64,000 nt of DNA from an uncultured delta proteobacterium (lineage in GTDB: Bacteria > Desulfobacterota > Desulfovibrionia > Desulfovibrionales > Desulfovibrionaceae), in the NCBI GenBank assembly GCA_900079685.1, contig LT599018.1:826478-890477 (forward strand). The letters are read 5' to 3'. Each line of letters begins with the position of its first letter. The stretch's first letter is position 1. The translations under genes and the position numbers were made by a program. This document shows, piece after piece, positions 7,129-52,326 of the stretch. The notes under the pieces were generated by a model that was not told the origin of the DNA, searched no databases, and saw nothing but the letters and a program-made list of their open reading frames with translations.

Positions 7129-7151
7129 ATGCAGTACAACTCATACCATAC

Positions 7152-7232
7152 GAGCTTTCCTGCGTCAGCATTACCTGCCTCAGGTTCAAGGGGTCTGGAA
7201 TTTCCACTCTCAGCCGGCGCACCCGCCAGCTC
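7152..7232 (-). promoter_or_regulatory. TPP riboswitch (THI box)
   Basis: Read on the minus strand, this segment has the conserved TPP-aptamer blocks in order: GGGTGC, GCTGAGAG, ACCC-CTTGAACCTGA, GTAATGCTGACGCAGGAA. The closing P1 helix can form between GAGCT at 7232-7228 and AGCTC at 7156-7152. It sits about 60 bases upstream of thiS and before an intrinsic terminator, so it should repress the thiamine operon when TPP is plentiful. Confidence 0.95.
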
Positions 7233-7251
7233 CCCCAGCATTGATGTCCAG

Positions 7252-48363: not shown

Positions 48364-48888
48364 ATGAATATCGCCTTTGCATTCAAAAACTTCGAACCTT
48401 CCGACCATCTGAAAAAGTATGCCAGCCGCCGGTTTGAAAAACTCGGTCGGTTTATCAATAAAGCGGAAAACGTGGAGATGAGCGTCAACCTTGCCGTGGA
48501 CAAATTCCGCCATAAAGCGGAGGTCCAGATCGCCGGAGACAATTTTAATCTGAGCGCCGCCGAACAGTCCGAGGACATGTACGCCACCGTCGACATGATC
48601 CTGGACAAACTCGAAGCGCAGATAAAAAAACACGCGGAAAAGCAGAAGGAAAAGCGGCGGAGCTCCGGGCAGTCCCCGGATCTGCCCTCCTCCGAGACCA
48701 CGGAACGGAGCATTATCGGCGAGGACAAGTTCATTCCCAAACCCATGTTCCTGGATGAAGCCGCGATGCAGCTGGAACAACTTACCGATGAAGCGTTCCT
48801 CGTCTACCTTGATGCGGAGACGAACCGGGTCAACGTGCTTTATCGCCGCAAAGACGGCGACTTCGGCCTTATTGACGCCGGCCAGTAG
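48364..48888 (+). CDS. hpf: Ribosome hibernation promoting factor, long form
   Basis: A 174-residue protein that inactivates and pairs ribosomes in stationary phase. The N-terminal ~95 residues are the S30AE domain (MNIAFAFKNFEPSDHLKKYA, DMYATVDMILDKLEAQIKKH). A charged linker leads to the C-terminal dimerisation domain (FIPKPMFLDEAAMQLEQL...AFLVYLDAETNRVNVLYRRKDGD), which makes it the long form able to form 100S ribosomes alone. GGAGG precedes the ATG; it is 33 bases after rpoN. Confidence 0.94.
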   Translation: MNIAFAFKNFEPSDHLKKYASRRFEKLGRFINKAENVEMSVNLAVDKFRHKAEVQIAGDNFNLSAAEQSEDMYATVDMILDKLEAQIKKHAEKQKEKRRSSGQSPDLPSSETTERSIIGEDKFIPKPMFLDEAAMQLEQLTDEAFLVYLDAETNRVNVLYRRKDGDFGLIDAGQ

Positions 48889-48893
48889 CACCC

Positions 48894-49337
48894 ATGCGTC
48901 TTTCGGAGTATCTGTGCCCCGCCTGCATCGTCGCGGAACTGAAGGCCACGGACAAGGAGCAGGTTCTTCTGGAACTCGCCGCCGCGGCAGCGGGGGCGCA
49001 CCTGGATAAAAATGCCGTGCACGCCGTGCTTCTTGAGCGCGAGCGCCATGGAACGACCGCCGTGGGGAATGGGTACGCCATTCCCCACGGCAAACTGCCG
49101 GGCCTGGACAGAATGGTCCTGACCTTTGCCAGAAGCGTCGCGGGCGTGGACTTTGCGGCTCCGGACACCGTCCCCTGCCGGTTCTTTTTCACGGTCATCG
49201 CTCCGGCGGGGGCCGCCGGCCAGCATCTGGGGCTTTTGGGCAGCATCGCAAGGCTGGCGAAAGACGCCACCTTTACGAACCGGCTGACGCAGGCAAAAAC
49301 GGCTGAAGACTTACTGGACTTTCTTGCGGGAGCATGA
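48894..49337 (+). CDS. ptsN: Nitrogen-type PTS EIIA (PtsN)
   Basis: A 147-residue regulatory phosphocarrier of the mannitol/fructose EIIA fold. The phosphorylated His is H65 in GNGYAIPHGK. In other bacteria EIIA-Ntr has no sugar permease and controls K+ transport, sigma factors or other enzymes according to its phosphorylation state. It begins five bases after hpf. No EI or HPr gene is in the window. Confidence 0.9.
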   Translation: MRLSEYLCPACIVAELKATDKEQVLLELAAAAAGAHLDKNAVHAVLLERERHGTTAVGNGYAIPHGKLPGLDRMVLTFARSVAGVDFAAPDTVPCRFFFTVIAPAGAAGQHLGLLGSIARLAKDATFTNRLTQAKTAEDLLDFLAGA

Positions 49338-49520: not shown

Positions 49521-50429
49521 ATGAATACCACAGACCTTCATGATTCTGCCCAACAGTCTGAGTTTCCCATCATTTTCGTCACCGGTCTTTCCGGAGCCGG
49601 GAAAACGACGATCCTCAACGTCTTTGAAGATATGCGTTTTTTCACGATGGACGGTCTGCCCTCCACCGTCATCAGCGGCATCACCAAAGTCTTAAACAAA
49701 GACAACCTCAGGGATTTCAAGGGGCTCGTCATCGGCGTCAACCTGCTGCATCCCGACGCGCTCGCCCTGTACGACGAAGCCATGGACAAGCTGCACAAGC
49801 GGGGGATGTCTCCCGGCCTTTTGTACGTGGAGGCCAAACCCTCGGTCCTGATGCAGCGGTACGCCACCACGCGCAGGCCGCACCCGCTGGAAAACGAGGG
49901 CCTCGGCCTTGAGCAGGCCCTGGAAGAGGAGCACAAACGCCTTGCCCTGGTCCGGGAAAAAGCGGACCTTATCATTGACTCCTCCAGCTATTCCATCCAC
50001 GATTTGCGCCGGGTGATCCAGAAGAAGTGGGAAACCCTCCGGGCGCGCTCCCATTCCATGAAGATCCACCTTATATCCTTCGGCTTCAAGTACGGCACGC
50101 CGTCGGAAGCGGATATGGTATATGACCTGCGCTTTTTGCCGAATCCGTATTTTGTCCCGGAACTCAGGCCCATGTCCGGGCTTGACGCGCCCGTGGCCGA
50201 TTTTCTGCTGGGGCAGGACCCGGGCCGGGCTTTTGTCGCGAAATTGGCCGAATTCCTGCTCTACCTTCTGCCCCAGTTCGAAAGCGAGGGACGTTACCGC
50301 GTCACCATCGCCATCGGCTGTACCGGCGGCCGCCACCGCTCGGTCGCCGTCACGCATGCGTTGTGCACATTGTTGACCGAAAACGGCTTTCTTGTAACCA
50401 CCGAGCACAGGCACTTGGAATTGGGCTGA
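49521..50429 (+). CDS. rapZ: RapZ-type nucleotide-binding protein
   Basis: A 302-residue P-loop protein. Walker A is GLSGAGKT at residues 22-29; FEDMRFFTMDGLP and the C-terminal GCTGGRHRSVAVTHALC are family signatures. In E. coli RapZ guides RNase E to the GlmZ RNA and senses glucosamine-6-phosphate; in other lineages the role differs (YvcJ). That role is not evident here because no GlmZ-like RNA was found. The conserved position after ptsN supports the call. Confidence 0.94.
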   Translation: MNTTDLHDSAQQSEFPIIFVTGLSGAGKTTILNVFEDMRFFTMDGLPSTVISGITKVLNKDNLRDFKGLVIGVNLLHPDALALYDEAMDKLHKRGMSPGLLYVEAKPSVLMQRYATTRRPHPLENEGLGLEQALEEEHKRLALVREKADLIIDSSSYSIHDLRRVIQKKWETLRARSHSMKIHLISFGFKYGTPSEADMVYDLRFLPNPYFVPELRPMSGLDAPVADFLLGQDPGRAFVAKLAEFLLYLLPQFESEGRYRVTIAIGCTGGRHRSVAVTHALCTLLTENGFLVTTEHRHLELG

Positions 50430-50468
50430 TTTTGCCCTATATATTCCGCACAGTCTTTTTGCTTTTTT

Positions 50469-50587
50469 GAGCATTTTCACATTGAAATTTCTCTTTATGA
50501 AAAATGCTCCGGGCTTGAGAAGCCTTGCGTAACAAGGCCCGCGAGATTGACGCAGGCGGGGTTTCCCCGCCGTTAAGCGGCAATCTC
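50469..50587 (+). promoter_or_regulatory. Two hairpins between rapZ and the PTS genes
   Basis: GAGCATTTT (50469-50477) pairs with AAAATGCTC (50501-50509). A second, longer stem is GAGATTG (50543-50549) with CAATCTC (50581-50587), enclosing CGC/GCG and GGCGGGG/CCCCGCC. The second ends 32 bases before the EIIA start. They may end rapZ transcripts or act as a structured leader for the PTS genes. Confidence 0.55.
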
Positions 50588-50619
50588 AAAGCGAATATGC
50601 TCTAATGAGGTGCTCCGGC

Positions 50620-51078
50620 ATGTCCAAAACAATCGCCCCCAAAAACCCCGCGGCCGGGGTCATCCTGGTAACCCACGTCGATTACGGCGCGGGCCTCCTC
50701 CGCGCGGCGGAAACCATTCTCGGCCCTCTGGCGGACTGCTCCTCCATCCAGGTTGACGCCGGTCTTGACGTAGGCGGAACCGTTACCCGCTTAAAGGAAG
50801 CCGTCAGCCTCCTGGACAAGGGAAACGGCGTTATCGTGCTGACGGATATGTTCGGCGGAACGCCCACCAACCTGAGCCTTTCCCTCCTCGGCTCAGGCGC
50901 CATAGAGGTCGTCACGGGCGTCAATCTGCCGATGCTGCTGAAAGTTTTCGAGGCCCGGCACCTGGAACTCCCGGCCCTGGCGGACGTCGCCATGGAAGCC
51001 GGGGGCAAGGGAATCGTCTCGGCCAGCAGGCTTTTGCGCAGTAAAACAAAGGCCGAGAAGACCGAAAAGGCTGAGTGA
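50620..51078 (+). CDS. Mannose-family PTS EIIA
   Basis: A 152-residue EIIA of the mannose/fructose/sorbose family. The phosphorylated His is H19 in LVTHVDYG; LTDMFGGTPTNLSLSLL is the second family signature, as in ManX. It would pass phosphate from HPr to the following EIIB. I chose the ATG at 50620 (GAGGTG eight bases upstream) over one at 50605. The Lys/Glu-rich tail is unremarkable. EIIB follows directly. Confidence 0.9.
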   Translation: MSKTIAPKNPAAGVILVTHVDYGAGLLRAAETILGPLADCSSIQVDAGLDVGGTVTRLKEAVSLLDKGNGVIVLTDMFGGTPTNLSLSLLGSGAIEVVTGVNLPMLLKVFEARHLELPALADVAMEAGGKGIVSASRLLRSKTKAEKTEKAE

Positions 51079-51080
51079 GC

Positions 51081-51542
51081 ATGATCTGGTTCAGGATAGA
51101 CAACCGGCTGATCCACGGCCAGATCATTGAAACATGGCTGCCCTACACGCGCGCCACCCGTCTGGTTGTCTGCAACGGGGAGCTCGCGCGGGACGACTTG
51201 CGGCAACAGATCATGATGCTGGCCGTTCCCTCGCGGATCACGGTGGATTTCACCGCGCCCGCGTCGCTGAACCAGCTGCTGCATGCGCGGCACGAGCAGG
51301 ACGAGCGCGTTCTTGTGATTTTCGCGGACTGCGCCGACGCCCAAGCCGCGCGAAACGCCGGGGTGCAGTTCACCATGCTCAATATCGGCAACATGCATTA
51401 TGCCCCGGGCAAACAGCAGGTTTGCGGGCACGCCGCTTTTTCCCAGGAAGATTCGGACTGTCTGCGCTCGTTTTCCGAGCTGGGCATTAATCTTGATTTC
51501 CGTTGCGTTCCCAACGATACAACAGAGGTGACGGAGTGGTGA
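51081..51542 (+). CDS. Mannose-family PTS EIIB
   Basis: A 153-residue EIIB; the phosphorylated His is H12 in FRIDNRLIHGQI, almost identical to family consensus. The start may also be GTG 51075, which overlaps the EIIA stop. Its own stop (TGA 51540-51542) overlaps the GTG of the EIIC gene, so the three are translationally coupled. Sugar specificity cannot be read from sequence. Confidence 0.9.
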   Translation: MIWFRIDNRLIHGQIIETWLPYTRATRLVVCNGELARDDLRQQIMMLAVPSRITVDFTAPASLNQLLHARHEQDERVLVIFADCADAQAARNAGVQFTMLNIGNMHYAPGKQQVCGHAAFSQEDSDCLRSFSELGINLDFRCVPNDTTEVTEW

Positions 51543-52242
51543 GCACCGATATTCTGGCCGCCGCGGGCCACAGCATCGCGCCCGCTTTTTTTTTGCCCTG
51601 TTGAGTCTGGGCCGGTTCGGCGCCAACCTCGGCTTCATCGAGCGCCCTCTCTTCGCGGGGTTCGTCTGGGGAGCGGTCACCGGTGACATGAGTCTGGCGC
51701 TTTCACTGGCTGTTTTTTACGAGCTCTTCTGGCTCGACCTTTTCCCCGCCGGCACGTACATGCCCCCGAATCCGCTGTTCCCGATGCTGTGCGTTCTCAC
51801 CCTTTCGGAAAGTCTTGCCGCCCCCGACATCGTAACGCTCTTTTTGCCGGTCATTTTAACGCTGCCTCTGGCGGCTCTCGGCTCATTCATCGAAAAACGC
51901 CAGCGCGAATGGCAGGTTGCGGGCTATAACCGGGTCATACTCTGCCTCCGGGCGGACGGCGATATCGGCAAGGCCGCCGGTCGCGCGGTATCCGCGTCGC
52001 TCGCGCAGCTGTTCACCGTCAACGCCTTCGTCTTTTTCGCCGCCACAACCCTGGTCGCGTTTGGGGCGTCCGCCCTGACGGCCTGGCAGGGCCAGCCGCT
52101 CACGTTCCAGTACGCCTCCTGGCCCCTGCTCTGGGTTATCGGCGCTGTCGGCGGCATGCTTTCGCTGCGCATACGGCGCAACTATATCCTTTTTACCGCC
52201 GGCGGCACGGCCATAGGGTTGTTCCTGCTGCTGCCGCTTTGA
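51539..52242 (+). pseudogene. Mannose-family PTS EIIC, frameshifted at a T9 tract
   Basis: A membrane EIIC protein split between two frames. GTG 51539, overlapping the EIIB stop, opens VSTDILAAAGHSIAPAFF and then hits TGA 51602 just after nine Ts (51586-51594). The remaining ~213 residues are open in the -1 frame: LLSLGRFGANLGFIERPLFAG, SLAVFYELFWLDLFPAGTYMP and several membrane helices to the stop at 52242. That frame has no ATG or GTG before the homology. Adding one base at the T-run restores a normal ~234-residue EIIC. It is either a pseudogene, a homopolymer sequencing error, or a gene read by slippage at T9. No EIID gene follows. Confidence 0.75.
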
Positions 52243-52252
52243 CCGGCGCCGC

Positions 52253-52304
52253 AAAATGACCTGATGCCGCGGTTCCGGAAGGAGCCGCGGCATCAGGTCA
52301 TTTT
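52253..52304. terminator. Bidirectional terminator, 20-bp stem
   Basis: Arms 52253-52272 and 52285-52304 are perfectly complementary, flanked by AAAA and TTTT. It lies between convergent EIIC (+) and ychF (-). Confidence 0.88.
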
Positions 52305-52326
52305 CCAGGGCGTTCCGACGCCGTGT

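Follow-up and report, generated by a model that had tools for sequence, protein, structure and literature searches.

In the 64,000-nucleotide stretch of DNA analysed here (the window), the gene for a mannose/sorbose-family PTS permease, EIIC, is split between two reading frames that meet at a run of nine Ts (T9), and exactly nine Ts stand at the same place in 190 of the 202 EIIC loci read across the order Desulfovibrionales, which takes the frame break beyond chance. We propose, with a probability of roughly two in three, that a programmed frameshift is conserved here, most likely as transcriptional slippage that adds one U, perhaps together with -1 ribosomal slipping, and that it sets the dosage of EIIC. 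The components of this reading differ in strength: as judged from the compared sequences, a frameshift at T9 itself is very likely; we infer that the slip occurs in transcription rather than in translation; and dosage is a plausible purpose, the simplest use being to hold EIIC at a low level compared with EIIA and EIIB.

The source genome of the window (4.0 Mb, three contigs, 95.4% complete) carries EIIC at the end of a gene order that runs hpf-like, ptsN-like, rapZ-like, EIIA-Man, EIIB and EIIC and is followed by an inverted repeat, with the following features:

48364-48888, plus strand: hpf-like ribosome-associated protein gene, neighbourhood (PF02482 and PF16321)
48894-49337, plus strand: EIIA-2 / ptsN-like gene, neighbourhood (PF00359)
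49521-50429, plus strand: rapZ-like gene, neighbourhood (PF22740 and PF03668)
50605-51078, plus strand: PTS EIIA, mannose family (PF03610)
51075-51542, plus strand: PTS EIIB, sorbose/mannose family, immediately 5' of EIIC (PF03830)
51539-51604, plus strand: EIIC zero-frame ORF, with a GTG over the EIIB stop and 21 codons before a TGA
51586-51594, plus strand: T9 slippery run; zero-frame reading xxT TTT TTT TTG, body-frame reading TTT TTT TTT
51586-52242, plus strand: EIIC body in the -1 frame, mannose/sorbose-family PTS permease IIC
52246-52311, strand undefined: inverted repeat with 31-nt arms, 87% complementary, directly 3' of the EIIC stop; possibly a candidate two-way terminator

The EIIC body matches PF03609 (EII-Sor; E 3.1e-09, 37.1 bits against a curated cut-off of 26.3), and this match, together with the EIIA, EIIB and EIID partners, identifies the gene as a mannose/sorbose-family PTS EIIC; EIID lies about 78 kb from EIIC in the window's own genome and is adjoined by an HPr-like ORF, on a by-eye reading. 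T9 lies between the EIIC start, GTG 51539, and the body, which is in the -1 frame and has its stop at 52240-52242. The start overlaps the EIIB stop at 51540-51542, with GTG 51536 as an alternative in the same frame, and the zero frame runs from it to the TGA at 51602-51604, with an unshifted product of about 21 residues. On its 5' side the body frame is closed by a stop 23 codons ahead of 51601, and no ATG, GTG or TTG is present in the window's body frame 5' of T9. An earlier note on this DNA had described both the split between start and body at the run and the lack of an upstream ATG or GTG in the downstream frame; coordinates and frames are confirmed, and the lack extends to TTG.

A search of 149 relatives with the EIIC body protein gave 122 matches in 121 genomes; loci were selected via the body protein alone, and the T run had no part in the selection. 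A PF03609 search found 102 of the 149 genomes, as against 121 with the window protein, and contributed no additional ones. From this first set 121 loci were read and 120 kept, those left out being in G129, where by its coordinates the contig begins 3' of the run, and in G014, where the match begins at residue 101. Exactly nine Ts are present in 110 of the 120 loci, each time starting 15 bases ahead of the first body codon, with a distribution by family of 57/65 in f1, 16/16 in f2, 8/9 in f3, 20/21 in f4, 8/8 in f5 and 1/1 in f6. A phylum search gave seven further genomes of the order, all with T9, and an order-wide search matched 252 of 348 genomes, of which 75 new ones were read from the better-scoring matches, with weaker matches under-sampled; these additions comprise 73 T9 loci, one T10 (G675) and one T8 (G688). 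The total thus comes to 202 EIIC loci in 201 genomes, two of the loci being in G126, and since the loci share descent the counts are not independent events. T9 is also present in all seven of the named public records, which include isolates and MAGs, were kept out of the 202-locus count and in part overlap counted loci. The named relatives matching the window's EIIC are Desulfovibrio and Solidesulfovibrio records, the latter genus being placed in the Desulfovibrionales by NCBI, and the order of the window was set by these named relatives.

Among the 190 T9 loci, a start codon is found solely in the zero frame in 179 and in both frames in nine, where the zero frame offers ATG and the body frame merely TTG or GTG; the zero-frame start lies 44-80 nt 5' of the body in 188 of the 190. 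The zero-frame stop comes before the first body codon, or no more than 30 nt from it, in 94 of the 110 T9 loci of the first set. The frame-broken set coincides with the T9 set except for one locus in G126 (L089), which is cut by the contig end, and that of G535, which is in frame owing to an extra base 5' of the run. All 12 loci without T9 are in frame, among them four with T8 (G140, G063, G034 and G688) and the single T10. EIIC is in frame in 13 of the 202 loci altogether, which indicates that the frameshift device is dispensable. Natural in-frame versions, useful as ready-made controls, are L275 (G535, base before T9), L258 (G675, T10), L246 (G688, T8) and L031 (G140, T8).

Every frame-broken locus retains all nine Ts, and in no frame-broken locus has a T been lost at the third positions within the run. 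The invariant columns of the T9 group are true by construction, and the argument rests on all frame-broken loci being T9. Elsewhere in the 110 T9 genes of the first set, Phe is encoded by TTT 858 times and by TTC 854 times; with loci taken as independent, the chance of TTT at all three Phe codons of the run is about 1e-138, a figure that serves only as a yardstick because the loci are related. In 74 of the 110 loci the first T fills the third position of a zero-frame Ala or Gly codon (the codon ending in it being GCT in 41, GGT in 33, AGT in 28 and TGT in 8), and in the bodies 333 of 2658 Ala codons (12.5%) and 219 of 1701 Gly codons (12.9%) end in T; the base 3' of the run is G in 107 loci and A in 3. 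Codons at the run columns vary among the ten first-set loci that lack T9, for example TTATTCTTT and CTCTTCGTC, so the protein has no need for FFF. On this comparative evidence selection acts on the T run itself, and two hallmarks of slippage genes are found here: a homopolymer of at least nine at the frame junction (190/202), and joint retention of run and frame break to a degree that the protein does not require. The earlier suggestion that full-length EIIC is made when the ribosome slips by -1 or one U is added at T9 thus gains strong support from the order-wide retention of run and frame break.

In the mechanism that we propose, zero-frame translation of EIIC would begin at the EIIB stop, and a literal mRNA would lead to a dead-end peptide. 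RNA polymerase would slip on the nine-base run so that a fraction of transcripts gains one U, and the added U would join the start to the body, giving full-length EIIC with its first membrane helix intact; ribosomes slipping by -1 on these Us might assist. The slip fraction would probably keep the level of EIIC lower than that of EIIA and EIIB, whose genes lie directly 5'. Nothing in the survey supports on/off switching of EIIC. A further idea, which we regard as decidedly doubtful, is that the slip rate at T9 acts as a sensor: polymerase pausing at the end of U9, ahead of a G in 107 of 110 loci, would slip to an extent that follows the nucleotide pool, and permease dosage would track the energy state of the cell; if true, this would be a metabolic control device fixed across most of a bacterial order.

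Both routes suit the geometry of the site, an added U or a -1 slip on T TTT TTT or T TTT TTG, and programmed -1 ribosomal frameshifting on U9 could do the job with a faithful mRNA, an explanation that we consider unlikely but deserving of serious weight. A slippery heptamer is in zero-frame phase in the 110 T9 loci examined, and the two heptamers in tandem would also require, and so account for, all nine Ts. A single heptamer suffices for the ribosome, however, and leaves two or three positions free, yet none of these has been lost in frame-broken loci, which favours transcription. The same preference draws on the stimulators of ribosomal slipping, which are helpful rather than essential and are not conserved overall: no conserved downstream structure was found at the run (mean z +0.2 versus -0.21 and +0.08 in controls), and an SD-like motif within 20 nt 5' of it is missing in 93 of 109 loci and present in 16, versus 0 to 11 in seven control stretches, with 12 of the 20 T9 loci of family f4 carrying it. 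The length of nine likewise agrees with reported RNA polymerase slippage, in that Tn with n above 8 is given as the range of transcriptional slippage (PMC3711429) and nine as the size of run where selection shows clearly in many genomes (PMC1088944).

With regard to purpose, the strongest rival is that slippage tolerates an old one-base loss and that the run persists as a neutral trap, since most changes would kill the gene. Slippage reportedly rescues broken genes in symbionts, and losses of T9 are always accompanied by an open frame here; yet a single step to T10 restores the frame and would be expected often, the 202 loci hold only the one T10, and an exit so easy should not, we would argue, leave the broken state in place order-wide, so that we find this explanation rather improbable. 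We give very little weight to translational coupling, in which ribosomes would re-initiate after the zero-frame stop and make the body as a product of its own, with no frameshift at all. The window would permit it, with a TTG (51601) overlapping the zero-frame TGA (51602-51604), but a start overlaps the zero-frame stop in 10 of the 110 loci, the window included, and lies within 25 nt in 29, and with overlapping or near starts in this minority we rejected the general route; moreover, in 73 of the 110 the first body-frame start 3' of the run comes only after the invariant Arg at codon 15, part of the first helix in the model of an in-frame homologue would be missing from the product, and T9 would be left unexplained. 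Two further options raised in the earlier note were rejected from the comparison between genomes. T9 runs can mutate, and the one T10 and four T8 loci, all in frame, might recall phase variation by replication slippage, but in a contingency tract many different ON lengths would be expected, and 190 of the 195 loci with 8 to 10 Ts have exactly nine; the frequent run-length differences between relatives that mark phase-variable genes are not found across the 202 loci, which makes this option highly improbable. A sequencing or assembly error in the window's genome, conceivable as homopolymers are error-prone, has a probability that is practically nil, given the identical run in 189 other loci of the order and in all seven named records.

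Programmed slippage, our preferred reading, concerns a protein that, on the evidence below, is needed at full length. Its in-frame relatives have an N-terminal stretch of similar length 5' of the body. In an AlphaFold model of in-frame G045 (mean pLDDT 78.9, ten-row alignment) a helix spans residues 6-29, and the run equates to residues 17-19, counted from the start at -63; on this model, a product begun inside the body would be missing the beginning of this helix. Compared with mannose-PTS IIC chains, the G045 model gives 6k1h_B as its best match (Foldseek E 7.6e-04, TMq 0.54, rmsd 9.2), and the profile of in-frame homologues matches ManY 6k1h_Y weakly (E 0.0022), so that the likeness to ManY, the mannose-family PTS permease IIC of PDB 6k1h, consists of a weak profile match and a model resemblance. 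To our knowledge, the solved ManY-type genes are single ORFs. Across the 149 genomes, EIIC and EIID are both present in 118 and both absent in 22, with EIIC only in three (G051, G095 and G148) and EIID only in six; as the two are mostly retained or lost jointly, decay of the EIIC gene was rejected. One EIIC-only genome, G095, is 95% complete and has an in-frame EIIC (L010) with no EIID match.

Beyond the order, profile A1, made from 40 EIIC bodies, matched 119 of 395 phylum genomes, 103 of them outside the family and order. We sampled 34 of the 103, and 31 loci were readable, L188, L198 and L214 being left out because the profile match was EIIB rather than EIIC. T9 was found in none of the 31 readable homologues, and a body-frame start is present in all 31; with outsiders in frame and lacking T9, the device appears to be as old as the order or to have originated inside it. 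In a tree of 120 bodies, made by a quick method with the run left out, a midpoint root for drawing and some long branches, the presence of T9 needs 8 changes, at least 6 of them forced by well-supported (starred) branches, and shuffled labels gave as few changes in 10 to 14 of 500, which points to T9 losses that are weakly clustered. Given the in-frame outgroups, a simple reading would be one gain of T9 and several losses, each with an open frame. The earlier note had counted relatives with an altered run and a normal frame as evidence against a frameshift, and such relatives do occur (12/202), but the first ten of them are scattered over separate places of the tree and resemble independent losses.

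The EIIC site resembles known frameshifted genes in part, and some details of the comparison with prfB are general background. As described in the available parts of the sources, Shigella mxiE (PMC1088944) likewise has a U run at a frame break where an added nucleotide joins two ORFs into a longer product, but it is a plasmid-borne activator, whereas EIIC encodes a sugar permease and is retained throughout a bacterial order. In Thermus thermophilus dnaX a nine-base homopolymer, A9, sets a programmed product ratio (excerpts of PMC3711429 and PMC1088944), but slippage there adds a shorter product beside the full-length one, whereas the unshifted product of EIIC is merely about 21 residues. The prfB gene, as far as covered in the accessible text of PMC3711429, shares a near-start shift that is required for the full protein and is widely conserved yet absent in some lineages; it differs in using a +1 ribosomal shift with autoregulation, EIIC having a T9 run, the opposite direction and no conserved SD element. 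Some prfB genes escaped GeneTack when the shift was nearer than 50 nt to the start, according to the part of Antonov et al. available (PMC3711429). In EIIC the distance from start to shift has a median of 44 nt and is at most 50 nt in 99 of 109 loci, with starts chosen 44-75 nt 5' of the body, and the site may have been overlooked, like those prfB genes, because the shift is so near the start; further near-start frameshift sites may exist.

Among the hits listed in our literature search there was no report of the EIIC T9 site, of which supplementary lists may hold an entry. Comas et al. 2008 (PMC2405797) discuss, in the portion available, a putative mannose-class PTS in D. vulgaris, and the word frameshift is absent from the text of that paper; the available excerpts of Antonov 2013 (PMC3711429), Baranov 2005 (PMC1088944) and Atkins 2016 (PMC5009743) mention neither PTS nor Desulfovibrio. 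Many sulfate-reducer genomes probably list the EIIC permease as truncated or broken, and the EIIC T9 would be an old and well-preserved instance of a bacterial metabolic gene that relies on programmed slippage.

The window's own genome (4.0 Mb) holds 22 runs of nine or ten T/A (loci L140-L165), and around these the codon-usage frames gave a signal too weak to show other frameshifted genes. The sole match of an Rfam scan was a TPP riboswitch at window positions 7140-7246 on the minus strand (66.9 bits), away from EIIC. Finally, an intergenic repeat of about 150 bp lies between the rapZ-like gene and EIIA (50457-50613), with copies of 76-81% identity at three other places in the same genome and several in a genome of the same genus, G001.
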